DNA of 64,000 nt from contig JAJGOT010001014.1 of assembly GCA_022457155.1 (NCBI GenBank), positions 40,362-104,361 of the forward strand, in the 5' to 3' direction. A model generated the notes under the pieces. That model was not told where the DNA came from. It saw nothing but the letters and a program-made list of their open reading frames with translations, and did no database searches. Each line of letters starts with the position of its first letter. The stretch's first letter is position 1. The DNA is from Cladopsammia gracilis. Lineage: Eukaryota > Cnidaria > Anthozoa > Scleractinia > Dendrophylliidae. Position numbers and translations under genes: made by a program. Of the stretch, positions 17,741-37,224 are shown piece by piece.

Positions 17741-17744
17741 CAGT

Positions 17745-18189
17745 AGTGTAAATCTGACGGTTCTAGCGCATTTTCATTAAATTTCGTTAAATTATCGATC
17801 GTTCACATTAATTTAACGAGAAAATGACCCGTTCACACGTTCACAACTCGCGAGTCACGGGTCACATGCATAACGCATTTTCGTTAAATTATCGATCATT
17901 CACATTAATTTAACGGTATACACATACACGTTCACAACTCACGAGTCACGAGTCACGCAAAATGATTATTCACCACTAGTAGTAGTCACACACACGAATG
18001 TGTTCCCCAAAGAGATACCACTCAAGCAACACTGGTGAGTTCTATGGAAGAGAAAAATCGACACTACCTAAAGAAAGCACCGCAATTCTAAGCGACTATC
18101 CCAAAGAGATACCACTCAAGCAACACTGTTAGGTTAAGGTAAGGAATTTTTTTAAAAAATGGAATTAAAGAAATAATAAGTACTAATAA
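17745..18189 (+). repeat. Left terminal inverted repeat of the Polinton
   Basis: The repeat matches the reverse complement of 34845-35322. The outer 330 bp or so are essentially identical. After AGCGACT the right copy has about 21 extra bases, and a second small difference lies near the T-rich tract at 18145-18160. It contains internal repeats: TCACATTAATTTAACG twice, CGAGTCACG words, and GAGATACCACTCAAGCAACACT twice. The inner edge reaches to within 6 bp of the first start codon, so the TIR includes the promoter of the first gene. Confidence 0.9.
18165..18174 (+). promoter_or_regulatory. Early-type promoter box TTAAAGAAAT
   Basis: The box starts 31 nt before the ATG at 18196. The same decamer, or a one-base variant, stands 27-32 nt before the ATGs at 18614, 19244, 34447 (minus) and 34842 (minus). 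Confidence 0.65.
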
Positions 18190-20781: not shown

Positions 20782-20808
20782 ATTTATTATACGTCTTGTA
20801 TAATAAAT
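20782..20808. terminator. Hairpin between convergent Polinton genes (TTTATTATAC family)
   Basis: An 11-bp perfect stem (ATTTATTATAC/GTATAATAAAT) closes the loop GTCTT. Nearly the same stem occurs at 23824 and 28676. It sits between the convergent genes ending at 20412 and 20861 and could act on either strand. Confidence 0.6.
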
Positions 20809-20860
20809 TTCACACGCATGCGCATACACATGTTACACATGTATACACATGTTGAAGGAT

Positions 20861-21352
20861 TCATGTTATGAAAATTCTCTCATATTTCTCTTCAATCCTT
20901 TCATTAGAAAGTGTACAAAGATCACTAATCATGTCATCGATTAATCTCATCTCATCCACAAACGAATCGTGATCGAAATGTTTCCCCCGCATACAAGAAC
21001 GTAAGTCAATCAGTACTTTCTGATATGTTGTATATGCGTGTTTACTCATTTCAATCCTTCGATTATAATTCTTGTAATCGGCGTATGTTTTCAATAACAA
21101 TCCCGCACCGGCAATAACTCCTAGTGTAACGGGGTTTAGTGTAACTCCGCCTGCTATTGTACCGCTCGCGATAAGAAATGAACTACTCAGTTTACAGAAT
21201 AGATTCATTCGTTTGAAGCGTCTATAAGTCTTTTTATAACACCACCACTTCTTGTGATAAAATCTGTAAAGAGCCTTAATCTCCAACAGTCTCTCCTCAC
21301 CGATTGAAGTATCGATGTGATTGAACGTGAAAATATCTCGTTTATGTTTCAT
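20861..21352 (-). CDS. Polinton membrane-spanning protein
   Basis: The 163-residue product has a basic, aromatic N-terminal third (FYHKKWWCYKKTYRRFKR), then two closely spaced hydrophobic segments (about residues 55-90: SSFLIASGTIAGGVTL and LGVIAGAGLLL), then a helical charged tail. Comparable two-TM proteins are common in metazoan Polintons, with no settled function. It is transcribed divergently from the ATPase gene, the two ATGs being 37 bp apart in a pure A/T promoter region. Confidence 0.7.
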   Translation of the reverse strand: MKHKRDIFTFNHIDTSIGEERLLEIKALYRFYHKKWWCYKKTYRRFKRMNLFCKLSSSFLIASGTIAGGVTLNPVTLGVIAGAGLLLKTYADYKNYNRRIEMSKHAYTTYQKVLIDLRSCMRGKHFDHDSFVDEMRLIDDMISDLCTLSNERIEEKYERIFIT

Positions 21353-21388
21353 ATTTTAAAAATTAATTTATTTTTTAAATATAGTAAA

Positions 21389-22027
21389 ATGAAGTTTCTT
21401 AACTATGATGTGGGTGATGATATGGTAACGAATTACAAACAATTACATTCTTTCATGCCAGATCAAAATTTTAGAATGTTGATTTGTGGACCTTCTGGTT
21501 CAGGAAAAACAAATCTTTTACTTGATATGATTTTTCGTTTATTGTATTATGACAAGGTATATCTGTATGCGAAAAATTTAGACCAATCAAAATATCAGTT
21601 CTTATTAAGAAAATTTGACCCGATCAATCAAGATGCTGGTTATGAAGTGATAGAAATATCTCCAGAAGATATCATACCAGTATCTTCATTATCGGATGAA
21701 AACCAAAAAATAATTATATTCGATGATTTTGTGTGTGAAAAGAATCAAAATCCGCTGATTGAATATTTTATCAATGGTAGACATAAAAATTGTAGCGTTA
21801 TTTATCTTTCACAAAGTTATTATAAGACACCAAAAGATATACGGTTAAATTGCTCGCATTTCTGCGTTTTCGAATTTCCGAGTAATAACGAAATTTCTAT
21901 GTTTTGTCGTGAGGTTAATGTTGATAAGAAACAATATGAAATGGCTACAAAAGATCCATACTCTTTTCTCTATATTGACAAACCGAAGAAAAGAGTATTA
22001 AAAAATTTTGATGAAAATATAATCTAG
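21389..22027 (+). CDS. ATP: DNA-packaging ATPase (FtsK/HerA-like, Polinton type)
   Basis: The start is the ATG at 21389 (AATATAGTAAAATG context). The upstream extension of the frame has no conserved sequence and begins at a weak codon. The 212-residue product has Walker A GPSGSGKT (residues 34-41) and a Walker B hydrophobic strand ending in acidic residues, KIIIFDDF (about 107-114). A later S-Q-S sensor-like segment (IYLSQSYYK) is typical of A32/FtsK-like packaging ATPases. It would pump the element's DNA into preformed capsids. It starts a rightward virion-gene block and is separated by 18 nt from the fibre gene. Confidence 0.9.
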   Translation: MKFLNYDVGDDMVTNYKQLHSFMPDQNFRMLICGPSGSGKTNLLLDMIFRLLYYDKVYLYAKNLDQSKYQFLLRKFDPINQDAGYEVIEISPEDIIPVSSLSDENQKIIIFDDFVCEKNQNPLIEYFINGRHKNCSVIYLSQSYYKTPKDIRLNCSHFCVFEFPSNNEISMFCREVNVDKKQYEMATKDPYSFLYIDKPKKRVLKNFDENII

Positions 22028-22045
22028 ATTATATCCAGAAACGAA

Positions 22046-23812: not shown

Positions 23813-23823
23813 GCTTCTTACAA

Positions 23824-23852
23824 AATTTATTATACGCTGCGTATAATAAATT
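23824..23852 (+). terminator. 3'-end hairpin after the fibre-like gene
   Basis: A 13-bp perfect stem (AATTTATTATACG/CGTATAATAAATT) closes the loop CTG, 12 nt after the gene end at 23812. It is the strongest member of the TTTATTATAC hairpin family. Confidence 0.65.
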
Positions 23853-24044
23853 AGATGATCTTTCAGATCTTAGCGTGTTCAAACGCTTCTACGACCTCTC
23901 TAGCAATCTCTCGAGTTTCTCTTAACCATTGAGGAGAATAGATCTGAAAGATATGTTCGTTTATAAAAGAGACAAGAAAGAAAACACTCGCAATCATTAT
24001 TTTATATTAACAATTAAAAATTTAAAATCGATATATCTAATAAA
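23853..24044. other. Intergenic gap, late-type promoter region
   Basis: No gene is seen. The last 40 bp are A/T-only and end in ATATCTAATAAAATG, matching the TAATAAAATG context of other late genes (21389, 25602, 28702). Confidence 0.45.
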
Positions 24045-24114
24045 ATGAGTTTACTTAAGTGGAAAGAACTTGCAAAACGAAAAACCCAGTTGGGGAATAA
24101 GATTAATTTTGTTC

Positions 24115-24801
24115 ATGAAACAAAGCGGTAAAGAATTAGCAGGAATTGATTATTATCCTGATGTAGATCCGTATGAAGAGATGGATGTAGAAGGTTTAAT
24201 TGATTTTGGTGAAGAAGTTTTACCAGAACATGCGAAGCCGCAACCACCGGTTGCATCAGCATCATCAGCAGATTCTCCACCACCAGCATATTCGCCGGGT
24301 CAATACATGAAATTAAAACAACAAAGAGCCCTGGAAGAAAAAGAAATATTTGAAAAATACGGTTTACCTATTATTGAAACAACCGAAGAATCACCGGAAG
24401 AGGCGCTTGAAGCGTATGATAGCGTGGTAAAAGAGCTAGGAAAAGAAAAACGAAAATTGACCAATTTAATGAATAAAACAGGAGATCCTACAGAAAAGGA
24501 AACTCTCAAAGAACAAAGAGAGCGGTTGCAAAGAGAAAGTTCCGTAATTTCAGTGAGAAGAGATAAATTAAAAAAGACAGGCAAAGGTCTAAGAAGAAAA
24601 AGAGGCGGAAACTTAACATTTTTTAATAATTATAAAGATCTTGCTAAAAAACTCGAACTAATAGTAGGTGAAATTATAGCCGGTAATACAAATATTGAAA
24701 TGCGTAATACCGGAGTTGCAATTTTAGACGAACTTTTGAAAAATAATATAATCGATAAAAGACAGGCAGAACAGATTTACAAGAGTTATTTTAAATATTA
24801 A
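24115..24801 (+). CDS. Polinton conserved virion-associated protein (basic coiled-coil, GGN..FF motif)
   Basis: The 228-residue product (ATG 24115) has an acidic, Pro-rich first third with PPPAYSP, a charged coiled-coil middle (about 90-170), an RRKRGGNLTFFNNYK basic motif, and a conserved-looking C-terminal helical domain (KKLELIVGEIIAGNTNIEMR, NTGVAILDELL). This C-terminus is typical of a late structural protein found in cnidarian Polintons. An ATG at 24045 with a good late-promoter context opens a different frame (28 codons, stop at 24131) whose sequence looks like this family's N-terminus. Joining them would need a +1 shift near 24126-24130. Confidence 0.7.
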   Translation: MKQSGKELAGIDYYPDVDPYEEMDVEGLIDFGEEVLPEHAKPQPPVASASSADSPPPAYSPGQYMKLKQQRALEEKEIFEKYGLPIIETTEESPEEALEAYDSVVKELGKEKRKLTNLMNKTGDPTEKETLKEQRERLQRESSVISVRRDKLKKTGKGLRRKRGGNLTFFNNYKDLAKKLELIVGEIIAGNTNIEMRNTGVAILDELLKNNIIDKRQAEQIYKSYFKY

Positions 24802-24826
24802 AAAATATTACTAATATCAAAAAAGG

Positions 24827-25588
24827 ATGGATAGAGAAATAGTATTATCATCATATTCTGTTAAATCAGAAGGTAACAACAGACCTGGAGATTTCACAAC
24901 AAAATTTTATCAACCGATTGTTTTAGATCAAAATGCGGAATATGCTATCGGTCTTAACAGAATTATCAATATGAGTTTTACGTGGTATAACATTAATGCT
25001 GAACGTAACAATCAGCTAATCAGATACAGTTCTGATGGTGGAAAAACGTTTCGAGATATTACTTTCCCAGGTGGAGTTTGGAATTATAAAAAGTTTAATC
25101 AACTTATCCAAAAAGAAACTGCTATAAAACATCCTGAAAAAGACGATGAGTTTCCAATCAACCTGGTTTTTAATAAAGCAACTTTTAGAGTAACAATAAC
25201 ATTGAAAGAAAATTATCAACTCGATCTAAAACAGAGTAACTTTAACGAACTGATCGGTTTTGACAAAACAGTTCTGAAGGAACAGATAAACGTTGGTCCT
25301 AGAGTTCCAAATTTGGCTCAAGATACTGAGATGTTGAACGTTCATTGTGATCTGACAAACGATTCACTTGTTGATGGTATAAAAACAGATATCATTTACT
25401 CCTTTTCGACAGGTGTTCTTGATCCATCATATAGTTTTACAATTGAACCGATGAGAGTAACATATAACCCTGTGAATACAAACACGATAAGCAATATTCG
25501 AATCTATATCACAGATGGAAAAAGAAATAAGGTCAACCTAAACGGTGCTGATACAGCTTTTTCTTTAATTTTAAAGAAAATAATATGA
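24827..25588 (+). CDS. mCP: Minor capsid (penton-like, single jelly-roll) protein
   Basis: The 253-residue, beta-rich product has a distinctive N-terminal signature (PGDFTTKFYQPIVLD, YAIGLNRIINMSFTWYNI), a GGKTFRDITFPGGVW turn and regularly alternating hydrophobic strands. These are characteristic of the Polinton penton homologue at the vertices of the capsid. It is 25 nt after the previous gene and 13 nt before the next one, inside a tightly packed late block (ATPase, fibre, this gene, small basic protein, MCP, pX-like, protease). The context TACTAATATC lies before the ATG. Confidence 0.85.
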   Translation: MDREIVLSSYSVKSEGNNRPGDFTTKFYQPIVLDQNAEYAIGLNRIINMSFTWYNINAERNNQLIRYSSDGGKTFRDITFPGGVWNYKKFNQLIQKETAIKHPEKDDEFPINLVFNKATFRVTITLKENYQLDLKQSNFNELIGFDKTVLKEQINVGPRVPNLAQDTEMLNVHCDLTNDSLVDGIKTDIIYSFSTGVLDPSYSFTIEPMRVTYNPVNTNTISNIRIYITDGKRNKVNLNGADTAFSLILKKII

Positions 25589-25601
25589 ATGTAATAATAA
25601 A

Positions 25602-26021
25602 ATGAAAAGTTACGAATTTACACGCTTTTATAGCCCATCTTTAGGTAAATTTATTTACAAACATAAAGGAACAGGCGTCATTGTTGATAATATTTTTAAA
25701 CCGATGAAGGCTGTAGCAAAGGCAGTTTTCAATAAATTTGCGAAACCTATCGCGAAAAAAGCGTTGGATGCGGGAATTTCTCATGCTGGTGAAAAACTAG
25801 GTAAAAAAGCAGCTGAAAAATCTGGCGATCTGATAATGAAAAAACTAGCTAGTATGAGAACGGCTACGCATAGAATATCTTCACCAAAACAGCCCACAAC
25901 TTCGTATAGTATGAGAACGGCTACGCACCAACGGCGACCTCCACCAAAACAGCAAGAAGATACTGATGTAATATTAAACAGATTAATATCAGGTAACGGT
26001 TTAAAAAAGAAAAAAAGATAA
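25602..26021 (+). CDS. Small basic virion protein, possible pVI/core-like
   Basis: The 139-residue, strongly basic product has an amphipathic helical Lys/Ala segment (about residues 33-85: KAVAKAVFNKFAKPIAKKAL, AGEKLGKKAAEKSG). A duplicated stretch (SMRTATH at about residues 85 and 104) and a KKKKR tail follow. Its location between penton and MCP genes and its amphipathic character fit the membrane-active or DNA-condensing small proteins of adenovirus-like capsids. The specific role is inferred. The ATG follows GTAATAATAAAATG. Confidence 0.7.
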   Translation: MKSYEFTRFYSPSLGKFIYKHKGTGVIVDNIFKPMKAVAKAVFNKFAKPIAKKALDAGISHAGEKLGKKAAEKSGDLIMKKLASMRTATHRISSPKQPTTSYSMRTATHQRRPPPKQQEDTDVILNRLISGNGLKKKKR

Positions 26022-26050
26022 AAAATAATATAGCTCTATAATTAAAAAAG

Positions 26051-27337
26051 ATGGCTTTTCGATCAAGTGATTATTTAGAACGATATGAAAGGGTAAAATT
26101 TAAACCTGATGATGTAATCAGAACACCGGCTAATGGCCAACATCAGGAAAAAGGTGGTTATAAGTTTACAATCGATGATAGATCAACGTTTTACGACTGG
26201 TATAACGCTCGTTTTGAAGTACGATACCAACTGCAGAAATTAGCAGACGGTGCTGGTTATGCAGCAGCTGATAGAATAACAGTTATTAACGGTTCTCATT
26301 CATTAATTAAACACCTAAAGATTAGATCTGGAGGTAAATTGATTTATGATTCCGATAATCTGCATAAAGTTACTTTTGTTAAAAATCTGTTAGAATACTC
26401 TGACGACTTCAGTAGATCAGTAGGAAAGAGAAGTTTCTGGTATCTGGATACTGATGCAACAACCGCTAACACTAATACAGGATTTGAAGCGAGGCGGATA
26501 CAAACTCAAGCGGCTCAAAACAATGGTAATGGTGGTGCTAAAAACATCAGCACGATTATTCCTCTGAATCGTTTTTCCTTTTTCGAAGAGTTGGAAGATA
26601 AGATGCTTGTTCCTATGCAGCTACAGTTCGAGATAAGGTTGCAAGACGATGATGAGTTGATTCATATGGCTAACGGTACGGATGCTGGAAGAGTTGTTGT
26701 CGATAGGTTTTCACTTTACGTTCCAAAAATAATACCTAAACTCTCTCTTTACGATAAATTTGTCAGCTCTTTTTTGAAAGAAAAACAATGGAAATATTTA
26801 GTCGATATGTATAGTCAATCAGCTCCAACGAGAGTATCAGGATTTTTTCGAATAACACCTAGTGTTGATAATGTTAAGCATGTTTTTGTTTATCTGAAAA
26901 GAGCCGCCCCACCAAATAATAATAAAGCAGAAGATAGTCCGTATCTTATGGACACTTTCAAATTAAATGCTGCAGATAACAACTCTTCGCTAGCAACCTG
27001 TAAATTAGAGTATGGAAGTTCGGTTTTTTACCCAGAATTAGAGTATGATGCTGAAGAAAAAGCGTTGATATTTGATGATGTAATGTCTTATGCAATGAGG
27101 TTAAATGATTACAACACAGGTACTCAGCTGAATTTATCCAATTATAACTCTCTCTATCCGCTAATTTATTTCAATTTAACTTATCAAGCTGAAAAAATAA
27201 CAATAGATCCCAAACCGCTAGAGTTCCATTATAACTTGAACACAGCTGCAACTGCAGACTTTAACGTACATGCGATAGTTTTGTATGAAAAATTAGCAAA
27301 AATAGACAAGGTTGGAAATGAGTTGGTCATCGCGTAA
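26051..27337 (+). CDS. MCP: Major capsid protein (double jelly-roll, hexon-like)
   Basis: The 428-residue product has a typical Polinton MCP N-terminus (SSDYLERYERVKFKPDDV) and a YKFTIDDRSTFYDWYNARFE strand pattern. ITVINGSHSLIKHLKIRSGG and a late YPLIYFNLTY strand give two successive beta-sandwich halves with an insertion around residues 130-160 (ATTANTNTG..NNGNGG). It would form the trimeric hexon-like capsomers of an icosahedral virion. The frame is uninterrupted. The gene lies 30 nt after the small basic protein gene. Confidence 0.9.
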   Translation: MAFRSSDYLERYERVKFKPDDVIRTPANGQHQEKGGYKFTIDDRSTFYDWYNARFEVRYQLQKLADGAGYAAADRITVINGSHSLIKHLKIRSGGKLIYDSDNLHKVTFVKNLLEYSDDFSRSVGKRSFWYLDTDATTANTNTGFEARRIQTQAAQNNGNGGAKNISTIIPLNRFSFFEELEDKMLVPMQLQFEIRLQDDDELIHMANGTDAGRVVVDRFSLYVPKIIPKLSLYDKFVSSFLKEKQWKYLVDMYSQSAPTRVSGFFRITPSVDNVKHVFVYLKRAAPPNNNKAEDSPYLMDTFKLNAADNNSSLATCKLEYGSSVFYPELEYDAEEKALIFDDVMSYAMRLNDYNTGTQLNLSNYNSLYPLIYFNLTYQAEKITIDPKPLEFHYNLNTAATADFNVHAIVLYEKLAKIDKVGNELVIA

Positions 27338-27396
27338 CCGCGTTGCGTAAATTCATTTTAAAAAACAATTTTGTATTTTACAATACTAAATACAAA

Positions 27397-28212
27397 ATGA
27401 CAACATATCATCCTTACAAAGTAAGTTTATCTAAAGGTCAGAAAGAAAAACTTGCAAGAGCTTATAAAACAAGCAGCCCAATCACGATTAGGTTAGCGAA
27501 GTCACAGACAAGTGGTAGCGATGAGCTACTGCTAACAGCTACTCAGATCAATAGAATCAGTAAAGCGAAATCGCTTGGAAATGGTGTAGAGATAAAAATA
27601 TCGAAAACACAGATTAGAAAAGTAATGAGAGAGGGTGGTAGTCTGTTCAGCGCTATTATACCGCTAGCGAAAACGTTAGCACCGACTATAGCTAAAACAC
27701 TCGGTTTATCAGCGCTTGCCGGATTAGCTAGCGAAGGAGCAAGTCAAATTGTTAAAAAGATAAGTGGTAATGGTGTCGGCGGACAAACCGGTGGTTTCCT
27801 CATCCCACCAGATAAGATTAAACAACTGATCGATTATAAACATTTGCTAACAAATAAACAGAAACAAGAAATTCTGGGCGCTCTTCAATCGGGAGGTCGA
27901 GTACTGATAAAGCCGACAAAAACACAATCTGGAGGGTTATTAGGGACGATATTAGCCAGTGTCGGTATTCCGCTAGCTATCGAAGCGTTTAAAAAATTGA
28001 CTGGAAGTGGAGCACCCAGAATGGGCAGACCTAAAAATGGAAAAGGGGCACCACGTCTAGGTGTAAGTAGGTATCCTTATCAACCTCCTCCATTCTTTGG
28101 ACAATGGGGAGAAAATACTGTTGGTATGGGGACTAAAAAAAAGGGAAAAGGGTTACTTTTCGGGAAGAACAGCCCGTTCAACAGCATACCGTTAGTAGGG
28201 GCTATCCTATAA
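27397..28212 (+). CDS. pX-like Gly-rich/hydrophobic virion protein
   Basis: The start is ATG 27397 (context ATACTAAATACAAAATG); the frame is open to 27343 without a better start. The 271-residue product has an N-terminal Thr/Ser/Lys-rich region (YHPYKVSLSKGQKEKLARAY) and a hydrophobic helix (SLFSAIIPLAKTLAPTIAKT, LGLSALAGLAS). A second hydrophobic GGLLGTILASVGIPLAIEAF segment precedes a conserved-looking tail (KGKGLLFGKNSPFNSIPL). It is common in cnidarian Polintons just before the protease, with an unestablished role: a minor capsid or membrane-lytic precursor is inferred. Its last 76 nt overlap a -1 frame that continues into the protease (see 28137-28175). Confidence 0.75.
   Translation: MTTYHPYKVSLSKGQKEKLARAYKTSSPITIRLAKSQTSGSDELLLTATQINRISKAKSLGNGVEIKISKTQIRKVMREGGSLFSAIIPLAKTLAPTIAKTLGLSALAGLASEGASQIVKKISGNGVGGQTGGFLIPPDKIKQLIDYKHLLTNKQKQEILGALQSGGRVLIKPTKTQSGGLLGTILASVGIPLAIEAFKKLTGSGAPRMGRPKNGKGAPRLGVSRYPYQPPPFFGQWGENTVGMGTKKKGKGLLFGKNSPFNSIPLVGAIL
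28137..28175 (+). promoter_or_regulatory. Candidate -1 ribosomal frameshift signal, pX-like to protease
   Basis: A_AAA_AAG in the pX-like frame (28137-28143) is followed by a 6-nt spacer and an imperfect hairpin at 28150-28175 (GGGTT/AGCCC and CTTT/GAAG with an internal loop). The -1 frame is open from 28137 through the whole protease, and has no ATG before 28263. G_GGA_AAA at 28143-28149 is a second usable heptamer. This is weaker than the two downstream signals. Confidence 0.4.
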
Positions 28213-28262
28213 GGAGTGTAAAGCCAAAATTCGTAAACAAACCGTTAAGTAATGTTGAACTG

Positions 28263-28661
28263 ATGAAGTGGATTTCATACCTTAGAATTCCAAATTTCAA
28301 AGGGATATATTCAAGGGATGAAGCTATGCCTAAAAATCATAGTCCATGCATTATTAATCTCGATTCGCTTGAAAATGCTGGAACTCATTGGGTTTGTTGT
28401 ACACCATCTCACGATAGATCTGTCGTATGGTATTTCGATAGTTTTGGCATGGGTTATCCCGAAGAATTTACAAGCGCAGGGAAACAGATAATCTATAATT
28501 CAAGTCAATATCAAAACATAAAAAGCGTCCTTTGTGGTTATTATTGCCTTTATTTCCTTCATCAATGGTCACTCAAGAAAGATTTTTATGATATCTTACA
28601 ACCGTTTAGCTTAACAGATACACTCATCAATGAAAAGTTCATTAAAAATTATTTTATGTAA
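28263..28661 (+). CDS. PRO: Adenain-like cysteine protease
   Basis: From ATG 28263 the product has 132 residues. It has the adenovirus-protease triad in the expected order: His in GTHWVCC (about residue 41), Asp in YFDSFG (about 59), a Gln before the nucleophile (about 87), and Cys in VLCGYYCLYF (about 98). It would process capsid precursors. The frame continues upstream without any ATG. A segment typical of the family N-terminus (NKPLSNVEL) is encoded just before the first ATG, so the mature product may begin earlier through frameshifting from the preceding gene or a non-AUG start. Confidence 0.85.
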   Translation: MKWISYLRIPNFKGIYSRDEAMPKNHSPCIINLDSLENAGTHWVCCTPSHDRSVVWYFDSFGMGYPEEFTSAGKQIIYNSSQYQNIKSVLCGYYCLYFLHQWSLKKDFYDILQPFSLTDTLINEKFIKNYFM

Positions 28662-28675
28662 TTAAAATTAAAAAG

Positions 28676-28702
28676 TTTTATTATACAGATCGTATAATAA
28701 AA
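28676..28702 (+). terminator. 3'-end hairpin after the protease, abutting the next start codon
   Basis: An 11-bp perfect stem (TTTTATTATAC/GTATAATAAAA) closes the loop AGATC, 15 nt after the protease stop. Its right arm supplies the A of the next ATG (28702) and the TAATAAAATG start context, so it may both end one transcript and shape the next leader. Confidence 0.6.
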
Positions 28703-28884
28703 TGGAACCACCAGCAAATATATATTGCGTCAAGGAACAAAAACATACAAACAACGCTGAACCATCCGGTTATGAGTTAGCCACCAACGGTAAACCTTAT
28801 TATTGGTGTAAGTGTGCTAATTGTGGAATTAAGAAAACCCGTTTCATTAAGAAATCCCATTTCGATATGATTTCGGGAAACTAG
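28702..28884 (+). CDS. Viral zinc-ribbon protein (DUF5679-like), zero-frame product
   Basis: The 60-residue frame has a degenerate viral zinc ribbon: IYCVKEQKH, then CKCANCGIKKTRFIKK. It ends at TAG 28882-28884. In related elements this ribbon is, as I recall, the N-terminus of a longer protein ending in a PLA2-like domain. Here the PLA2 lies in the -1 frame immediately downstream, and the stop is preceded directly by G_GGA_AAC. The short form is therefore probably the default product of a frameshift cassette. The first ribbon half shows only one clear Cys (YCVKEQ), so zinc binding may be altered. Confidence 0.7.
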   Translation: MEPPANIYCVKEQKHTNNAEPSGYELATNGKPYYWCKCANCGIKKTRFIKKSHFDMISGN

Positions 28885-28908
28885 TTCAGCCCTCACAAGG
28901 TGGGGGCT
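28875..28908 (+). promoter_or_regulatory. -1 ribosomal frameshift signal, zinc ribbon to PLA2
   Basis: The heptamer G_GGA_AAC (28875-28881) is exactly in the zero frame and immediately followed by the UAG stop. After a 6-nt spacer a GC-rich stem-loop begins: 28888-28896 pairs with 28100+800-808, that is 28900-28908 (9 bp including one G-U), with the loop AAG. GGGAAAC is a known functional retroviral slippery site. The -1 frame opens at 28851 and runs 603 nt. The stem followed by TTTTT also looks like a bacterial-type terminator, but that role is not expected in a eukaryotic element. Confidence 0.75.
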
Positions 28909-29483
28909 TTTTAGATGTGGAAGGTAGTCATAGTCTTGGAGAGATTGCTATGAAAGCTGGTATGAAAGGTCTTTACAATTTAGGAAAAATAGGAGCGTCA
29001 AAAGCCATCAAATCGGACTTTGTAAAGAAAAAGATTAAATCAGGTGTTAATAAGTATATCGATCAAGCTTTGGACAGTTTCACGGGAGACTTATCGAAAA
29101 GACTCGATCCACTTCACAGCGGTGGTGGGGTTGATATACAAAAACATTTATCAAAATTTGGAGAATTACATATGCGAACACCAACTTTAAAAAAATATAA
29201 TTACTGTGGTCCTGGAACAGACGTAAAAAAACGTTTGAAATCGGATGATCCAAAGATTAGAGACCCAATAAATAACCTTGATGCTATTTGTCAAAAGCAT
29301 GATATCGCATATAGTGAAGCACAAAGTTTGAAAGACAAACATAAAGCAGATGATATAATGCTTGATGAAATTTCAAAAATTCCATATAAAGATCGCCCCT
29401 GGGGTACTGCAGCTGTTCAAGGGATTATAAAAGGTAAAAGAATACTGGGTCTTGGTGCTTCAAAAAACGGAAAAAGCCGCTGA
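28881..29483 (+). CDS. Phospholipase A2-domain capsid-associated protein (-1 frame product)
   Basis: The frame is entered by -1 shift at 28875-28881. Without it the first ATG is 28950, since 28917 is GTG. A Gly-rich entry (QGGGFLD) and a basic helical region (about 100 residues) lead to a parvovirus-like PLA2 core: calcium loop YCGPGT, catalytic helix ICQKHDIAYSEA with the His-Asp dyad, and a following ADDIMLDE segment with the partner Asp. Such domains in parvovirus minor capsid proteins breach endosomal membranes. The zero-frame stop is TGA 29481-29483, inside the stem of the next frameshift signal. Confidence 0.75.
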   Translation, partial: LVQPSQGGGFLDVEGSHSLGEIAMKAGMKGLYNLGKIGASKAIKSDFVKKKIKSGVNKYIDQALDSFTGDLSKRLDPLHSGGGVDIQKHLSKFGELHMRTPTLKKYNYCGPGTDVKKRLKSDDPKIRDPINNLDAICQKHDIAYSEAQSLKDKHKADDIMLDEISKIPYKDRPWGTAAVQGIIKGKRILGLGASKNGKSR

Positions 29484-29561
29484 GTAGTAAAGTAGAGACG
29501 TGGCAAGAAAAGCTAGCAAACGAACTACATAAGCCTATAAGGCGAAAGTTTACTCAGCGGC
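29462..29561 (+). promoter_or_regulatory. -1 ribosomal frameshift signal, PLA2 to integrase
   Basis: The heptamer A_AAA_AAC (29462-29468) is in the PLA2 frame, 12 nt before its UGA. After a 7-nt spacer, 29476-29486 (GCCGCTGAGTA) pairs perfectly over 11 bp with 29551-29561 (TACTCAGCGGC), closing a 64-nt loop that itself contains a small GCC/GGC hairpin (29533-29543). The stop lies within the left arm. The -1 frame opens at 29438 and continues through the whole integrase. Confidence 0.8.
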
Positions 29562-30433
29562 GTGTTATTGCATACAGAATCGATGAAATATGGTGTTCCG
29601 ACCTTGTTGAGATGCAGAAATTTAGTAAGTGGAATAAGGGATATCGATATCTTCTCATGGTGTTAGATGTTTTCAGTAAATATGGATGGATTGTACCATT
29701 GAAGGATAAAAAAGGTGAGAGTGTTGTGGAAGCGTTCAAAACAATATTCATGGAAGGAAGAAAACCGGATTTTTTGTGGACTGATAAGGGAAAAGAGTAT
29801 TACAATAAGAATATGAAAGAACTGTTGGATAAAAATAAGATTCAACTATATTCAACAGAGAATGAAGAAAAATCTAGTGTTTGTGAAAGATGGAACCGTA
29901 CGATGAAAAACAAAATGTGGAAACAATTTACCATTCAAAACAATACAAAATATTATGATATGTTGCCGCGGTTGTTGGATGAATACAATAATTCAAAACA
30001 TCGAAGTATCGGTATGACACCTGTGGAAGCGTCGAAGAAAAAGAACGAAAGTGCTGCTTACTTAAATCTGTACGGTAAGATGAAACGTACGCACACTAAA
30101 CCGAAATTTAAAGTTGGGGATAAAGTTCGAATATCAAAATACAAACGTCCTGTTTTCGATAAAGGTTACACCCCAAACTGGACTGAAGAGATTTTTACTA
30201 TCGATAAGATTCAATACACTAATCCGATAACATATAAAATAAAGGATGAGATGGGTGAGGAGATAACGGGTACTTTTTATGAGCAAGAGTTGCAGAAGGC
30301 TGTTCAAGACGTTTACCGTATTGAGAAGGTGATTCGACGAGATGCTCGAAAAGGTAAAGCGTTGGTAAAGTGGAGCGGTTACCCAGAAAAATTCAACTCT
30401 TGGATAGATTTGAAAGAACTGAAAGACCTGTAA
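29468..30433 (+). CDS. INT: Retroviral-type integrase with C-terminal chromodomain (-1 frame product)
   Basis: The frame is entered from the PLA2 frame at 29462-29468. The only early ATG (29612) lies after the first catalytic Asp. The rve core has IWCSDLVEM (first D), DFLWTDKGKEYY (second D) and VCERWNRTMKNKMW (third E), the D,D-35-E arrangement typical of Polintons. A basic linker/SH3-like segment (KPKFKVGDKVRISKYKRPVF) is followed by a chromodomain (YRIEKVIRRDARKGKALVKW, SGYPEKFNSWI). It catalyses insertion and leaves a short target duplication. The ELHKPIRRKF lead-in matches Polinton integrases. The frame is intact to TAA at 30433. Confidence 0.88.
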   Translation, partial: RKKPLSSKVETWQEKLANELHKPIRRKFTQRRVIAYRIDEIWCSDLVEMQKFSKWNKGYRYLLMVLDVFSKYGWIVPLKDKKGESVVEAFKTIFMEGRKPDFLWTDKGKEYYNKNMKELLDKNKIQLYSTENEEKSSVCERWNRTMKNKMWKQFTIQNNTKYYDMLPRLLDEYNNSKHRSIGMTPVEASKKKNESAAYLNLYGKMKRTHTKPKFKVGDKVRISKYKRPVFDKGYTPNWTEEIFTIDKIQYTNPITYKIKDEMGEEITGTFYEQELQKAVQDVYRIEKVIRRDARKGKALVKWSGYPEKFNSWIDLKELKDL

Positions 30434-30447
30434 TGATGTAAGCTTTT

Positions 30448-30477
30448 TTTTTCATTTCATGAACGTGAAATGAAAAA
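30448..30477. terminator. Hairpin between convergent integrase and polymerase genes
   Basis: A 12-bp perfect stem (TTTTTCATTTCA/TGAAATGAAAAA) closes a 6-nt loop. It starts 15 nt after the integrase stop on the plus strand and lies 11 nt past the PolB stop on the minus strand. It could end both transcripts. Confidence 0.65.
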
Positions 30478-30487
30478 TCATGCGAAG

Positions 30488-33400
30488 CTATTTTGTTTTA
30501 TAATGTCCGTACGCAAGTGTGTGAATTCTATCAGGTTGTATTATTCTCTTATCATCATCTGCCGAAAGAGCGATCTTATTCACCTCTTCCGTAAATACTT
30601 CATGTTTACGACTCCTTATAGTATACATCTTTCGGTACTGTTTTCCACCACTAAATAAACATTTCTTATAATCACTAAATTTAATGGTTTTATTTCTTAC
30701 TGACTTCGTTACTCCTTTACACTTCTTCTCCTCCTTTCCCTCATACATCTTATAACTGTAAAGTTTCGATCTCAACCCTACAAATTCTTCTATTATTTTA
30801 CCGCCAGCTTCATCCTTGAACATTCCCACTACTTTCTTATTTATACCTACCTGTATACCTGACGGATGATCTTTTGGAAAATTACTCGTATCAAACTTGG
30901 CAACTACATCGTCGCTTATATCTTTGTAAAAGTCTTTTGTTTCAATCTCATATGCTAAGCTATCCGTATCGGTAAATAGTAGCTTTGCTTTTTCACCATA
31001 CTTTGGTTTGATGTAGTTATAATGAAAATCGTACATTAGAGACTTACTCAGATCGAGGATACACATACCGATATATACCGGTTTGTCGAATACAATTTTT
31101 ATCTTTTTCATATCGACTGCACATAAATTTTCTGAAAAAATGGTGCAGTGTTTGAAGTTGGGTTTTGCTGCAAGTTTCTTTGCTTTCTTTTCCGAGTTGA
31201 GTAGACGTACATCCACTCTGTTACGGATGTTTTCCATCGTTTTTCCAAAGACGGAATTATTCATAAGTTTGAAAAATTCCTTTTCAAACTCATTTTGAGC
31301 TTCTGCACGCAAGCGTGTGTTTAAATCAATGTACTTTTTCATCCAATCACTCTCTTCAAATTTAATACCTCGATGAATCTTTGTGATTTTCATCCCTAAA
31401 GATTCATATAGTTTGAGATTTTCATAGTGAAGAATGTATTTCTTTTTATCATTCAAGTTAGGTATTAGTTTCTCCACTTTGTTTACCTTCAATCTCTCTG
31501 GAGCGAGAGGGTAGTCATTGTGAAGGTCGTGCAGCTCTTTCGGATACTCGAGATCGACTTCGAGTACGCAACTCTCATTTCTCCAATTAACCAATTCATC
31601 TTCATTCATCCATTTGAAACCACCTGTAGGTAATTTCTTACACATAGCCCAACCGTAAAGGTTATTTGCATCGAGATATGTAACATATGTGTCAGACTTA
31701 CTCTCATCATACTTTTCTTCCATGTAGATGTTGTTAGCTTTACCATACCTGTTTGATATCATTGAAATACCTCCTCTTATCCCTTTTTCAAACAATAGTA
31801 ACATATCTGGATCAGTCAAAAGTTCAAGTTTGACACCTGTGTATTTTAATAACGCATCCCAAGACAATCCTGGTGCAGTATAATACCAGGCTGGATCAAG
31901 GTCGTAATTGTTAATGCAAAGTTCACGAAAGTTTTCAAACACATCACATAGCAACAGCACATCCGACTTGTTGTAGAGATTGTGATAGTCTCTTAGCGTC
32001 TTCATTTCAAACGTACTCCACACCTTTTGCGCATGTTCATAATCTTCGTCAGAAATACCTTCTCCACTAAGTTTGGAAAAGAATTTATCTTTCGGTGGTA
32101 ATTGTGTTTCGTTTAATCTATTGAGGGAGTCCATATATTCATAAGGATATACACCTTTTCTCAACATCAACTCAAACTGTTCACCGCTAAAAAACTTGCC
32201 TGTGTTTTTGAATTTATCCTTTGATGCGCTCTTGAGATTTGAAACCAATTTGTCCAAACTTGAAGCCATAAAGTTGAAACTGTCAACAAATCGTATTTGT
32301 CGTTTTACATAGTTTTCTTTACCATCCTTATCCTTATACGTGTCAACCTTTATTTCTTTCGTGAAACTAAGATATTTTTCTTCATTTTGTGGAATACAAT
32401 TTATTTCACCTTCACTAACACCAAGATTTTTGATAAATAGATGAGCATCATACCCACACAAGTTGTGAAAAAAGACAGGAATAAATGTTGCTTTCTTACA
32501 TTTTAGATTACATCCATTATGTGCTGCACCACGAAATCTTCCAGTGTAATGACAATGATCGCGTACTTTGTCATCATCTTTTGCAAATTCACCTTTACAG
32601 ATCCAACACCTTGTTGACCTTTCAAATTCACGTCTCTCTTTATCCTTAAAAATCATCTTCTTTGAGAATTTAAACTCGTCATATATTCTCTTGATTTCAC
32701 ATTCCAACATATCCATAAATTTTTGACTTACATCTTCATCTTCAGAGGTTGCTGTATATTCAACAAGTTTTGAATGCTTGTCATCAAAATTACACTTTAT
32801 GTGAAAGCAAAAACTTGACGGTTTATGCTTTTGTAACTTCTTTGTGTAACTCTTTTCTTCTTCTTCTTCTTCTTCTTCTTTTGGAATCGGTTTGATGGTT
32901 GACTCAAAATCTGCTGTGATGGTGAATTCTAAAGGTATTTTTCGTTGATGGTTTTTAAATGAAATAGTCGATCCTTCCTCCGGCATTACAATTTTAACAG
33001 CCTCATTATCTTTACAGTATTCTTCATGTTTAAGTAACAATTCTTTTGTACCACGATAGTTGAGACATCTTAAACAAAAATACTTTTTATGTTCATTCTT
33101 TGATGTTTGACTTGATAACAGTCTACTCATATTCTTTATGAGGCAATAGTGTTTATTTTCACCTTTAGAAATGAGTAAGAGGTTTATTTTATCTTTACAT
33201 GTGCGCGACTCACTTATTTTCAGAGGGTAAACTTCACCTTCATAACCAAAAACGTTAACACCAACTGTTGGGTTTTGTTTTTCAAAACGTTTAAGATCCT
33301 TCAATTCGAATGGAAACTCAATTCCATTCCAGTCTAATTTTTCAGACTGTTTCCTTAATATTTTCGTTATACGTTCACCATCTCTAGTTACTGGATTTAA

Positions 33401-34447
33401 CGCTCTTGTGATGCACCATTTAAAACATTCATCGTCATCGTTTTTCATGTTTATTATCGCTTTTTTATTTGAGAGTACTTCTGGGAGCTGTATGTAGGAG
33501 GAACCACTCAGCGGTTCATACTTTACTGTATGGAGTTCCAAAGCAATGATTGAATCAAATATCCAATTACTACCTCGTTTTTGATATGCTGCTAAACTCT
33601 CTAACACTTTACCCATCATTTTTTGGTAGAGATCGTCAAGGTTAGTACCTTGAAGGTTTATTTCAACCTTTGAAACAAAATGTCCAGTTACGTACTCTAC
33701 ATCACCGGTTGCTATATTTGTTTTCGACATGGTGCACTTTAGGATTAATTTCAACTTTATGTTGCGGTGTTCGTTTAGGAACTGAAGTATAATAGGTTTT
33801 ACAGCTGACAAGAATGTTTTAGGGCCATACCCCTTAACCCCATCAATAGTATATTGCACAGCGAACTTTTTCAAAGCTGACTTCCTCTCTTCAAGCTTGA
33901 ACGCGCTTGCGTGTTTAGGCTTTAAATTTTCTAAAGCCACTTGGAGTGAATTTCTTTTTGAAACCCACTGTTTGTTATTATTTTTTACTTTTTTTTTCGC
34001 CTTTTGGAGTTTCTTCTTGATTCTTTTGATCTGTTTGACTTTAGCTTTATCATTCACCACTTCAACTGGTGAAGGCATTTCAAAGTTCTTTTCTTCTCTT
34101 TTTTGTCTGCGAGTTTGTTTAGATTTCATCTGATAAGGTTTTGGTTCTACTTTTCGTGGAGGTGGGGGTGGTGTTTGTTCTCTTTCCCTTGGAGGTGGTA
34201 CTTCTTCTTCTTCTTCATCTATAAAATTAACAATACCACGTTGTGGTGGAACAGTAGTATTGTCAGCTAGCCGTTGTCTTCTCTTTTTAGAAAGCCTCTT
34301 CTTTTTAGGTTTATCATTCTCTTCCTTTTGTGATTTAATACTACTTTCGATATTTTCAACTAGTTCTTTCTTACTCCAACGTGAATAATTTTTCAAACCG
34401 CTTTCACGTGCAATTACCCTAAGCTGTTTAACAGTTTTTGAATCCAT
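30488..34447 (-). CDS. POLB: Protein-primed family B DNA polymerase
   Basis: The intact frame encodes 1319 residues. A SAP-like module (KQLRVIARESGLKNYSRWSK) is followed by basic and Pro-rich linkers (residues 40-150), then a terminal-protein-like or linker region. Proofreading motifs: ExoI ITADFEST (about 514), a CWICKGEF/DHCHYTGRFRGAAH zinc-like cluster (about 615-640), ExoII FHNLCGYDAH (about 662) and ExoIII YNKSDVLLL (about 829). Polymerase motifs: A YLDANNLYGWAM (about 926), B KLMNNSVFGKTMEN (about 1064) and C LLFTDTDSLAYE (about 1161). It replicates the linear element by protein priming at the TIRs. It shares the TTAAAGAAAT promoter box with terminal genes. Confidence 0.95.
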   Translation of the reverse strand: MDSKTVKQLRVIARESGLKNYSRWSKKELVENIESSIKSQKEENDKPKKKRLSKKRRQRLADNTTVPPQRGIVNFIDEEEEEVPPPREREQTPPPPPRKVEPKPYQMKSKQTRRQKREEKNFEMPSPVEVVNDKAKVKQIKRIKKKLQKAKKKVKNNNKQWVSKRNSLQVALENLKPKHASAFKLEERKSALKKFAVQYTIDGVKGYGPKTFLSAVKPIILQFLNEHRNIKLKLILKCTMSKTNIATGDVEYVTGHFVSKVEINLQGTNLDDLYQKMMGKVLESLAAYQKRGSNWIFDSIIALELHTVKYEPLSGSSYIQLPEVLSNKKAIINMKNDDDECFKWCITRALNPVTRDGERITKILRKQSEKLDWNGIEFPFELKDLKRFEKQNPTVGVNVFGYEGEVYPLKISESRTCKDKINLLLISKGENKHYCLIKNMSRLLSSQTSKNEHKKYFCLRCLNYRGTKELLLKHEEYCKDNEAVKIVMPEEGSTISFKNHQRKIPLEFTITADFESTIKPIPKEEEEEEEEKSYTKKLQKHKPSSFCFHIKCNFDDKHSKLVEYTATSEDEDVSQKFMDMLECEIKRIYDEFKFSKKMIFKDKERREFERSTRCWICKGEFAKDDDKVRDHCHYTGRFRGAAHNGCNLKCKKATFIPVFFHNLCGYDAHLFIKNLGVSEGEINCIPQNEEKYLSFTKEIKVDTYKDKDGKENYVKRQIRFVDSFNFMASSLDKLVSNLKSASKDKFKNTGKFFSGEQFELMLRKGVYPYEYMDSLNRLNETQLPPKDKFFSKLSGEGISDEDYEHAQKVWSTFEMKTLRDYHNLYNKSDVLLLCDVFENFRELCINNYDLDPAWYYTAPGLSWDALLKYTGVKLELLTDPDMLLLFEKGIRGGISMISNRYGKANNIYMEEKYDESKSDTYVTYLDANNLYGWAMCKKLPTGGFKWMNEDELVNWRNESCVLEVDLEYPKELHDLHNDYPLAPERLKVNKVEKLIPNLNDKKKYILHYENLKLYESLGMKITKIHRGIKFEESDWMKKYIDLNTRLRAEAQNEFEKEFFKLMNNSVFGKTMENIRNRVDVRLLNSEKKAKKLAAKPNFKHCTIFSENLCAVDMKKIKIVFDKPVYIGMCILDLSKSLMYDFHYNYIKPKYGEKAKLLFTDTDSLAYEIETKDFYKDISDDVVAKFDTSNFPKDHPSGIQVGINKKVVGMFKDEAGGKIIEEFVGLRSKLYSYKMYEGKEEKKCKGVTKSVRNKTIKFSDYKKCLFSGGKQYRKMYTIRSRKHEVFTEEVNKIALSADDDKRIIQPDRIHTLAYGHYKTK

Positions 34448-34468
34448 CTTATTTTCATTACACTCAAG

Positions 34469-34478
34469 ATTTCTTTAA
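34469..34478 (-). promoter_or_regulatory. Early-type promoter box TTAAAGAAAT upstream of PolB
   Basis: On the minus strand the decamer starts 31 nt before the PolB ATG (34447) and is embedded in GGAATTAAAGAAAT, the same 14-mer seen at 18161-18174. Confidence 0.65.
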
Positions 34479-34501
34479 TTCCATTTTTTATGAAATGAAA
34501 C

Positions 34502-34532
34502 AATTTCAACTCTAGAAAATAGAGTTGAAATT
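34502..34532 (-). terminator. 3'-end hairpin after the rightmost Polinton gene
   Basis: A 12-bp perfect stem (AATTTCAACTCT/AGAGTTGAAATT) closes a 7-nt loop. It begins 14 nt beyond the stop of the minus-strand gene that ends at 34546. Its stem is related to that of the hairpin at 19180 (TTTCAACTC). Confidence 0.6.
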
Positions 34533-34545
34533 TATATTCACCACG

Positions 34546-34842
34546 TTAATTAAATTTTTGAGGATAACAGAAATGTAGCACATCTTCACATATTTGTTTA
34601 TATTTTTTGATTGTAAGAAGATTTTGACATGTTCTGCTGATAACATTCAAATAAGCTGTTGCTGGTTGCCTTTGGAGAATTGAGTTGAAATAATTCATTG
34701 TTTTTATTTCCAGCTCTTTCACTTTTTCATAGTTCTTAGAAAGTTCATCTTCACTGATTTCCCTATAATGATAAAATTCAATGAGACCATATTTCTCTAA
34801 TAAAAATCGTTCAGAGGTATCAATTTGGTATTCAACATTCAT
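34546..34842 (-). CDS. Polinton small helical protein at right end, unknown
   Basis: The 98-residue product is mostly helical, with Cys at about residues 73, 85 and 92 and no recognised domain. It is the mirror-position counterpart of the 18196 gene: its ATG lies 3 bp inside the TIR edge, so its promoter is carried by the TIR itself. The ATAAAGAAAT variant of the early box is at 34860-34869. I infer an early accessory gene. Confidence 0.6.
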   Translation of the reverse strand: MNVEYQIDTSERFLLEKYGLIEFYHYREISEDELSKNYEKVKELEIKTMNYFNSILQRQPATAYLNVISRTCQNLLTIKKYKQICEDVLHFCYPQKFN

Positions 34843-34844
34843 AG

Positions 34845-35322
34845 TTATTAGTACTTATTATTTCTTTATTTCTTTTTTTAAAAAATTTTCATACAAAAAT
34901 TCCTTACCTTAACCTAACAGTGTTGCTTGAGTGGTATCTCTTTGGGATAGTTTCTATTCCATTCTAGTCAGTCGCTTAGAATTGCGGTGCTTTCTTTAGG
35001 TAGTGTCGATTTTTCTCTTCCATAGAACTCACCAGTGTTGCTTGAGTGGTATCTCTTTGGGGAACACATTCGTGTGTGTGACTACTACTAGTGGTGAATA
35101 ATCATTTTGCGTGACTCGTGACTCGTGAGTTGTGAACGTGTATGTGTATACCGTTAAATTAATGTGAATGATCGATAATTTAACGAAAATGCGTTATGCA
35201 TGTGACCCGTGACTCGCGAGTTGTGAACGTGTGAACGGGTCATTTTCTCGTTAAATTAATGTGAACGATCGATAATTTAACGAAATTTAATGAAAATGCG
35301 CTAGAACCGTCAGATTTACACT
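34845..35322 (-). repeat. Right terminal inverted repeat of the Polinton
   Basis: This is the reverse complement of 17745-18189 with about 21 extra bases (around 34955-34977) and a slightly different T/A-rich segment near 34880-34900. The ends are exact inverted copies (AGTGTAAATCTGACGG). Confidence 0.9.
34860..34869 (-). promoter_or_regulatory. Early-type promoter box variant ATAAAGAAAT
   Basis: This one-base variant of the box starts 27 nt before the ATG at 34842 on the minus strand, inside the right TIR. Confidence 0.5.
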
Positions 35323-37224
35323 ATTTAAATCCCATTTTGAGTTTTATGCTAAATAGTCCGCCGTTTTGGTAATTTGCCGTCAAATCGTTTCTTTATGGGT
35401 GAGCTTGGATGAAATATTGGACCTTATTCGCATACATTTCTTAAAATCCCATTTTGAGTTTTATACGTAATAGTCCGCTGTTTTGGTCATTTGCCGTCAA
35501 ATCGTTACTTTATGGGTGAGCTTGGATGAAATATTTGACCTTATTCGCATACATTTATTGAAATCCCATTTTGAGTTTTATGCGAAATAGTCCGCCGTTT
35601 TGGTAATTTGCCGTCAAATCGTTACTTTATGGGTGAGCTTGGATGAAATATTGGACCTTATTCGCATACATTTCTTAAAATCCCATTTTGAGTTTTATGC
35701 GAAATAGTACGCTGTATTGGTCATTTGCCGTCAAATCGTTACTTTATGTGTGAGCTTGGACAAAATGTCGGACCTTATTCGCATACATTTATTGAAATCC
35801 CATTTTGAGTTTTATGCGAAATAGTCCGCCGTTTTGGTCATTTCCCGTCAAATCGTTACTTTAATGGTGAGCTTGGATGAAATATTGGACCTTATTCGCA
35901 TACATTTATTTAAATCCCATTTTGAGTTTTATGCGAAATAGTCCACCGTTTTGGTCATTTCCCGTCAAATCGTTACTTTATGGGTGAGCTTGGATGAAAT
36001 ATTGGACCTTATTCGCATACATTTCTTAAAATCCCATTTTGAGTTTTATGCGAAATAGTACACTGTATTGGTCATTTGCCGTCAAATCGTTACTTTATGG
36101 GTGAGCTTGGACAAAATATCGGACCTTATTCGCATACATTTATTGAAATCCCATTTTGAGTTTTATGCGAAATAGTCCGCCGTTTTGGTCATTTCCCGTC
36201 AAATCGTTACTTTAATGGTGAGCTTGGATGAAATATTGGACCTTATTCGCATACATTTATTTAAATCCCATTTTGAGTTCTATGCGAAATAGTCCGCCGT
36301 TTTGGTCATTTCCCGTCAAATCGTTACTTTATGGGTGAGCTTGGATGAAATATTGGACCTTATTCGCATACATTTCATAAAATCCCATTTTGAGTTTTAT
36401 GCGAAATAGTCCGCTGTATTGGTCATTTGCCGTCAAATCGTTACTTTATGGGTGAGCTTAGACAAAATATCGGACCTTATTCGCACACATTTCTTAAAAT
36501 CCCATTTTGAGTTTTATGCGAAATAGTCCGCTGTATTGGTCATTTGCCGTCAAATCGTTACTTTATGGTTGAGCTTGGACAATATATCGGACCTTATTCG
36601 CACACATTTCTTAAAATCCCATTTTGAGTTTTATTCGAAATAGTCCGCCGTTGTGGTCAGTTCCCGTCAAATCGTTATTTTATGGGTGAGCGTGGATGAG
36701 ATATTGGACCTTATTCGCATACATTTCTTAAAATCCCATTTTGAGTTTTATGCGAAATAGTCCGCCGTTTTGGTAATTTGCCGTCAAATCGTTACTTTAT
36801 GGGTGAGCTTGGATGAAATATTGGACCTTATTCGCATACATTTATTGAAATCCCATTTTGAATTTTATGTGAAATAGTCCGCCGTTTTGGTCATTTTCCG
36901 TCAAATCGTTACTTTATGGGTGAGCTTGGATGAAATATTGGACCTTATTCGCGTACATTTCTTAAAATCCCATTTTGAGTTTTATGCGAAATAGTCCGCT
37001 GTATTGGTCATTTGCCGTCAAATCGTTACTTCATGGGTGAGCTTGGACAAAATACCGGACCTTATTCGCACACATTTCTTAAAATCCCATTTTGAGTTTT
37101 ATTCGAAATAGTCCGCCGTTTTGGTCATTTCCCGTCAAATCGTTACTTTAATGGTGAGCTTGGATGAAATATTGGACCTTATTCGCATACATTTATTTAA
37201 ATCCCATTTTGAGTTTTATGCGAA
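35323..37224. repeat. 117-bp satellite array, right block (about 16 units)
   Basis: The array resumes exactly at the Polinton's end with ATTTAAATCCC, the duplicated target (35323-35330). Units carrying rare variants (TTTTATACGTAATAG, GAGTTCTATGCG, AATACCGGACC) reproduce the order seen at about 15771-17740, so this block is a copy of the left array's end. The array breaks off at about 37224. Confidence 0.95.

Follow-up and report, generated by a model that had tools for sequence, protein, structure and literature searches.

How could the integrase (IN) frame of this locus be translated? In the window, which is the whole 64,000-nucleotide stretch of DNA analysed here, the first ATG of the IN frame lies at 29612, downstream of the first catalytic Asp codon at 29600. 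The initial annotation proposed that IN is reached from an overlapping PLA2 frame by a second -1 frameshift, at a slippery heptamer followed by a stem. The conserved signals described below make it highly likely that a complete-looking Maverick/Polinton-type dsDNA element makes its IN by programmed -1 ribosomal frameshifting.

A Maverick/Polinton-type element with overlapping frames

The element spans positions 17744-35323, is bounded by 354-nt inverted repeats and lies within a satellite array whose repeat unit is 117 bp long (13789-17741 and 35327-37224). In a check for a 6-bp target-site duplication, TTTAAATC was found abutting the right end and again 2 nt outside the left end, both within satellite sequence. 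The long terminal inverted repeats, an rve integrase and an A32-like ATPase show that the element is of the Maverick/Polinton type. Its main features are as follows.

17744..18097, + strand: left terminal inverted repeat, 354 nt, 100% complementary to 34970-35323
21344..22027, + strand: A32-like packaging ATPase (Pox_A32, E 5.6e-15)
27397..28212, + strand: core-like ORF of 271 aa, preceding the protease and supplying the 0 frame at a probable third -1 site
28137..28661, + strand: adenain-like protease frame, offset by -1 from 27397-28212, with its first ATG at 28263
28702..28884, + strand: zinc-knuckle ORF (DUF5679), first part of the proposed ladder; ATG 28702, TAG 28882-28884
28851..29483, + strand: PLA2 frame (stop to stop), offset by -1 from the zinc ORF, with its first ATG at 28950; PF08398, E 6.1e-13
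29438..30433, + strand: IN frame (stop to stop), offset by -1 from PLA2; PF00665, E 4.7e-11, and PF00385, E 1.4e-6
30488..34474, - strand: 1328-aa ORF; Pfam match to Rho_N, with Endonuclease_7 and COG6_N under the cut-off
34970..35323, - strand: right terminal inverted repeat, pairing with 17744..18097

IN comprises an rve core and a C-terminal chromodomain, with its D-D-E residues spaced by 60 and 33 residues, and both YCGPGT and HDIAY are found in PLA2. The match of the zinc ORF to DUF5679 (E 2e-5, 25.1 bits) falls slightly under the Pfam cut-off of 27, and that of the protease frame to Peptidase_C5 (E 0.0079, 16.3 bits) falls under the cut-off of 21.3. The name 'core-like' is a guess from position, because this ORF is without a Pfam match. 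The Pfam search gave no polymerase match for the 1328-aa ORF, which is probably the protein-primed DNA polymerase, given its position and size. The larger + strand ORFs scanned gave no relevant Pfam match to jelly-roll capsid proteins, and no reverse transcriptase was found among the ORFs of the element that were scanned.

By eye, an AT-rich, TATA-like leader is visible at 28681-28704, just 5' of the zinc ATG. By the same reading, many of the element's other ORFs also have an AT-rich leader, which the first ATGs of PLA2 and IN lack.

The PLA2-IN junction

The junction between the PLA2 and IN frames (site 2) carries the following signals.

29462..29468, + strand: slippery heptamer A_AAA_AAC, in the PLA2 frame
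29476..29486, + strand: 5' arm of the stem, including the PLA2 stop TGA at 29481-29483
29551..29561, + strand: 3' arm of the stem, perfect reverse complement of 29476-29486

The PLA2 codons read TCA AAA AAC GGA AAA AGC CGC TGA, placing the TGA 12 nt past the heptamer, and a 7-nt spacer leads to a perfect 11-bp stem that closes a 64-nt loop. Heptamer, spacer, stem, loop, the -1 offset of IN and the position of ATG 29612 past the Asp codon had all been described in the initial annotation, and on checking every coordinate was exact.

When the 107 nt following the heptamer were shuffled with dinucleotides preserved, a perfect 11-bp helix beginning 5-9 nt past the heptamer arose in 5/40000 shuffles and a perfect 8-bp helix in 186/40000. 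The site 2 stretch folds at -33.2 kcal/mol, compared with -20.8 (sd 3) for shuffles (z = -4.13; 0/200 as stable). Both strands of the element were also scanned for X_XXY_YYZ motifs (Y = A or T, Z not G) linking a 0 frame to a -1 frame, the former open for at least 50 codons with its end no more than 100 nt away and the latter at least 60 codons long. Four sites were returned, all on the + strand, at 28143, 28479 (weak), 28875 and 29462.

Synonymous variation at the 3' arm of the stem is low, forming the second-lowest cluster of 8-codon windows among 209 IN codons, and is given little weight because it is not unique within IN. An internal hairpin considered within the loop of the window's stem was rejected, since by eye it is not kept in relatives.

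Conservation and replacement of the site 2 signal

Relatives were sought in the window's own genome (878 Mb, 1469 contigs), so that all comparisons come from one genome. The IN search scored the best 121 of 5302 candidates, and inspection covered 68 of the 121, one of them being the place of the window itself. A search with the PLA2 family scored the best 150 of 2120 candidates. Thirty were fetched and 25 proved to be loci with this IN, comprising 13 earlier places (not counted again), 11 new members of the same family (family A) and L098. Family A therefore totals 79 places (68 plus the 11 added), and a further 13 loci have PLA2 next to IN, namely L098 and 12 from a further search. An additional search with the L101 integrase (best 124 scored of 4923 candidates) added no junctions. 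No relatives were found in other genomes among viral contigs (searched by protein and by patterns), genome contigs and a phage collection. Two candidates from the genome contigs were rejected as integrases, L001 since its tblastn match is out of frame and contains a stop, and L002 on reading its sequence.

Conservation of the heptamer and stem across homologous elements had been named in the initial annotation as a check on its proposal. In these best-match samples, an in-register heptamer is kept at 88/92 loci that have PLA2 ahead of this IN. The four exceptions are L027, L117 and L118, which are one-frame PLA2-IN fusions, and L107, in which the junction is deleted. Within the 79 places of family A the heptamer is A_AAA_AAC in 65 and G_GGA_AAC, in the same register, in 13; the one place with neither is L027, where PLA2 and IN occupy one frame. 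The catalytic D, D and E of IN are kept in 67/68 copies.

The geometry is conserved together with the heptamer. In 67 family-A copies the 5' arm always starts 7 nt past the heptamer and the loop measures 49, 64, 67, 70 or 76 nt, lengths that differ by multiples of 3. The PLA2 stop in these copies lies 3-27 nt past the heptamer, at five positions and as any of the three stop codons. Among 78 family-A stems, 70 are fully Watson-Crick, three contain U.G, four have a terminal mismatch and one has an internal mismatch. In an alignment of the 60 distinct junctions (A1), 99.8% of cells pair, compared with 27-54% when the partners are slid by 1-3 columns. One pair alone covaries, with U-A in place of C-G on both sides of the stem in 8/60 distinct junctions, and the remaining 10 pairs are invariant. 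In the window the U of the covarying pair is part of the PLA2 stop; the copies with C-G have lost it and terminate PLA2 at a different stop within 27 nt. Of the five measures applied to A1, two (two-sided-change pairs and further pair types) are not above shuffles (399/500 reach them).

Beyond family A, 10/13 diverged loci keep the site 2 heptamer. Eight of them (L101-L104, L106, L108-L110), with an IN 60-62% identical to that of the window, have A_AAA_AAC and the 7-nt spacer followed by a 9-bp stem, GATTTTGAG/CTCAAAATC, which is unrelated in sequence to the window's and closes a short loop. L105 (72% IN identity) has the window's stem, in which G-C replaces A-U and U.G replaces one C-G, and L098 (61% IN identity) combines A_AAA_AAC with a further stem. 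That families with different stems share only 60-62% IN identity argues that the system is not recent. Heptamer and stem are thus not merely kept, with covariation, but are also replaced, and these observations across relatives uphold the predicted second -1 shift, which would extend PLA2 into IN.

The same data bear on the idea that the frames were broken through decay or assembly error. In the part of one source available, split ORFs in polinton-like elements that have integrated are interpreted as degeneration (PMC12721341). However, the terminal inverted repeats here are 100% identical, and the same break occurs at 88/92 loci with conserved signals and low dN/dS; the median is 0.19 for IN (150 codons; 2190 pairs of 68 copies with dS >0.05) and 0.10 for the PLA2 end (last codons; 782 pairs >75% identical). 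Decay or misassembly is accordingly given practically no chance.

PLA2 domain types ahead of the same IN differ greatly between copies (L006 and L008 versus L003) with the junction and tail unchanged, as if PLA2 modules had been exchanged. Other PLA2-bearing families are present in many copies in the same genome (L111-L116, L119, L120; L071-L075). In these 13 loci with the other type of PLA2, no match to this IN was found in the fetched stretch, and a heptamer scan of 11 of them yielded one weak candidate only.

Start codons available to IN

The overlap with PLA2 would be incidental if ribosomes reached an IN start codon directly, whether by internal initiation, by leaky scanning or by re-initiation. 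The window has no ATG in the open IN frame ahead of the first catalytic Asp, and the same is true of 50 of the 78 family-A copies with site 2, the window included. In 23/78 an IN-frame ATG lies between the heptamer and the Asp (75-108 nt before the Asp codon) and in 6/78 one lies 51 nt upstream of the heptamer; one copy has both types, so that 28/78 overall have such an ATG. Among the diverged copies with the site, 4/10 have no IN-frame ATG before the Asp and 6/10 have some. In 6/8 loci of the L101 family the ATG is upstream of the heptamer, and L108 has another after it.

An IN-frame ATG before the Asp is therefore present in 34/88 copies, and by sequence IN is not frameshift-only everywhere. 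The proposal that IN may be made only as a C-terminal extension agrees with the window, whose open IN frame has no ATG ahead of the Asp; in these 34 copies, by sequence, frameshifting is not the only possible route. Since an own start is open to them, it is the conserved signal that carries the argument for frameshifting, and not the missing ATG alone. Heptamer and stem are still kept in the copies that do have an IN-frame ATG, and initiation at an own start is considered an unlikely route to IN.

A predicted upstream frameshift site between the zinc ORF and PLA2

By calling the PLA2-IN shift the second, the initial annotation implied a first one upstream. The junction of the zinc ORF and PLA2 (site 1) carries two features.

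28875..28881, + strand: slippery heptamer G_GGA_AAC, with the stop TAG directly after; the zinc ORF ends GGA AAC TAG
28888..28908, + strand: hairpin with a 9-bp stem (28888-28896 / 28900-28908) and a 3-nt loop, 6 nt past the heptamer

G_GGA_AAC followed by the stop, in register with PLA2, is found in 47/68 copies; L030 and L066 also have the heptamer, with a PLA2 frame broken later. Ten of the 68 have the weaker-looking G_GAA_AAC with the hairpin kept (the PLA2 frame of one, L044, is broken). Site 1 is absent in 9/68. In eight of these (L005, L006, L008, L009, L010, L012, L014, L022) zinc and PLA2 share a frame and site 2 is kept, and in L027 zinc, PLA2 and IN are all in one frame. All 11 added family-A copies have site 1. 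A script scan of diverged loci found it in 4/8, as G_GGA_AAC in L103, L105 and L110 and as U_UUA_AAC, with a different hairpin, in L098.

Pairing at site 1 was counted in an alignment (A3) of 37 rows, 36 of them distinct, from which L098 was left out. It holds 24 distinct rows of the 47, nine from the other 12 family-A copies, and L097, L103, L105 and L110; L030, L040 and L058 repeat rows, and L097 is the sole row from the 11 added copies. In L105 the hairpin is shifted by one column, and this lowers the pairing count. In A3, 95.5% of cells are paired, compared with 84.0% in shuffles and 46-60% in slid controls. The covariation score is 0.302 against 0.111 for shuffles, and 0/500 shuffles reach 0.302. 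Two-sided-change pairs and further pair types are not above shuffles (500/500 and 279/500 reach them). Shuffling ignores relatedness, which the slid controls keep, and the shuffle figures are therefore not probabilities. The first shift is thus backed by evidence of the same kind as site 2, namely a heptamer, a hairpin and covariation.

Across sites 1 and 2 three heptamers, A_AAA_AAC, G_GGA_AAC and U_UUA_AAC, replace one another, and the two sites share one rule of spacing, stops and stems. Tandem -1 frameshifting is strongly supported by these features as the predicted mode of expression.

Splicing offers another way in which the frames could be joined, or an upstream start provided for IN, with the overlaps as leftovers. 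Transcription of the element probably takes place in the nucleus, and splicing would be available there. However, an ungapped comparison of 78 copies revealed no GT at one place in 90% of them within 90 nt before the heptamer, and the four kept AGs near site 2 sit in purine-rich sequence. Intact vertebrate Mavericks have been reported to be intronless, in the portion of that report at hand (PMC8097293). Splicing would also leave the heptamer rule and the covarying stems unexplained, and is held to be very improbable.

A probable third site at the protease

The core-like ORF and the protease overlap at 28137-28212, with the protease in the -1 frame, and the overlap contains one candidate.

28143..28149, + strand: candidate slippery heptamer G_GGA_AAA for the protease

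A survey of this junction searched 58 loci, of which 35 have a protease match and 26 a readable junction. At 14/26 (group-2) the junction has A_AAA_AAC with a stop 21 nt later. In 14/14 of these a protease-frame stop directly precedes the heptamer on its 5' side, and the protease frame therefore opens exactly at A_AAA_AAC. The first Met of the group-2 protease is residue 94 or 95 of 152-153, there being no early ATG. These 14 loci revealed no strong stem common to the junctions. Eleven window-like loci, representing nine places (L081 and L082 being repeats of L004 and L003), carry G_GGA_AAA or A_AAA_AAA; their overlap is long, and an ATG lies 24 nt upstream of the anchor. The junction of L098 has neither an ATG nor a canonical heptamer. 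Eight further stretches were inspected. A clean -1 overlap is present in L123, L125, L126 and L127, the candidates there being A-rich or A_AAA_AAC; the core frame is broken in L122 and L128, the protease frame is broken in L121, and L124 ends short of the junction. Together these junctions point to what is probably a third -1 site, leading into the adenain-like protease.

Runs of A invite the thought that slippage by the polymerase, and not by the ribosome, yields mRNAs with a changed frame. A_AAA_AAC contains six A, and longer A runs occur in group-1 protease junctions. However, polymerase slippage does not explain G_GGA_AAC and U_UUA_AAC, which stand at the same places without a long run, and a 7-nt spacer and RNA stems suit a ribosome, not a polymerase. 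The chance that it accounts for these junctions is judged to be slighter still than that of splicing.

A model for expression of the integrase

In the proposed model, ribosomes would start at the zinc ATG at 28702 and most would terminate at the TAG at 28882. Some, aided by the hairpin, would slip by -1 on G_GGA_AAC to give zinc-PLA2, and some of these would slip by -1 again on A_AAA_AAC, aided by the 11-bp stem, to give zinc-PLA2-IN. Three products would result, forming a ladder in which each step is made in a smaller amount than the one before, and the upstream protease would probably be made likewise from the core-like ORF. From the sequence signals we infer ribosomal use of the sites, the product ratios and entry of the fusions into particles.

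Parvovirus-type PLA2 acts in the particle, and for this reason a PLA2-IN fusion could, by analogy, carry IN into the particle. The initial annotation further suggested release of IN by the adenain-like protease and named adenain-type cleavage sites around the PLA2/IN boundary as a check. Across 77 site 2 junctions the adenain-type motif, which may not be that of this protease, occurs upstream of the shift in 16/77 and downstream in 0/77, and is not conserved.

Comparison with known systems

The best-known cases of programmed -1 frameshifting are those of RNA viruses, retroelements and insertion sequences. MMTV gag-pro uses A_AAA_AAC, and the catalytic domain of IS3-family transposases is of the rve/DDE type. 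In MMTV and HTLV, gag-pro-pol is expressed through tandem -1 shifts, of which the first is the more efficient in such viruses, as described in the part of the source available (PMC5009743). The element resembles these viruses in having two predicted -1 shifts in series, with the second leading into the integrase-bearing part, and the proposed ladder of three products is like the decreasing series Gag, Gag-Pro, Gag-Pro-Pol in beta- and deltaretroviruses. It differs in being dsDNA and in its upstream parts, where a DUF5679 zinc domain and PLA2 stand instead of Gag and protease. The same partial text describes OrfA and OrfB of IS3-family transposases as joined via a -1 frameshift (PMC5009743). 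The likeness lies in a frameshift that would join a catalytic domain to an upstream ORF; the IS3 family is bacterial, whereas here the lipase and zinc domain of a virus-like element precede the catalytic domain.

Closer in gene content are Spodoptera Mavericks 1 and 2, for which the available portion of the report describes a PLA2-bearing CAP, a chromodomain rve INT and an adenain-like protease (PMC5803895). The present element likewise has PLA2, an rve integrase with a C-terminal chromodomain and an adenain-like protease. In contrast to the arrangement here, the Spodoptera genes are described in that portion as separate ORFs, and frameshifting is not mentioned there (PMC5803895). In adintoviruses, -1 slippery sites have been predicted in the Penton genes, and -1 frameshifting has thus been proposed in relatives of this element. 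Unlike the sites described here, those affect the C-terminus of Penton and not PLA2, integrase or protease, and no test of their conservation is described, as far as the accessible part of the source goes (PMC11071296). No report of a frameshift-made integrase or protease in Mavericks/Polintons was found in the literature searched, as represented by the partial texts at hand.

The present case adds conserved, covarying -1 signals in series in a eukaryotic DNA element, leading to its integrase. If the signals are used, Mavericks would set enzyme dose in the way that retroviruses do, and the integrase could travel in the particle, which would bear on integration upon entry. Annotation is affected as well, since Maverick ORFs for PLA2, integrase and protease that look broken may be intact genes, and intact elements may be undercounted. 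A wider reading is tentative, and we lean somewhat against it. A eukaryotic dsDNA virus-like lineage may have independently built recoding of the retrovirus type. Protease, phospholipase and integrase would then be -1 extensions of proteins of the structural or core kind, each carried in the particle in a small, fixed number and freed on maturation, the integrase being delivered with an endosome-opening lipase.

Elsewhere in the window, an ORF pair (181 and 144 aa) is present in three copies with a period of 2008 bases at 57968-63211, the first pair of the array being without a Pfam match. A 564-aa ORF on the - strand (6275-7969) matches DDE_Tnp_4 (E 1.3e-25), a Harbinger-type transposase family.
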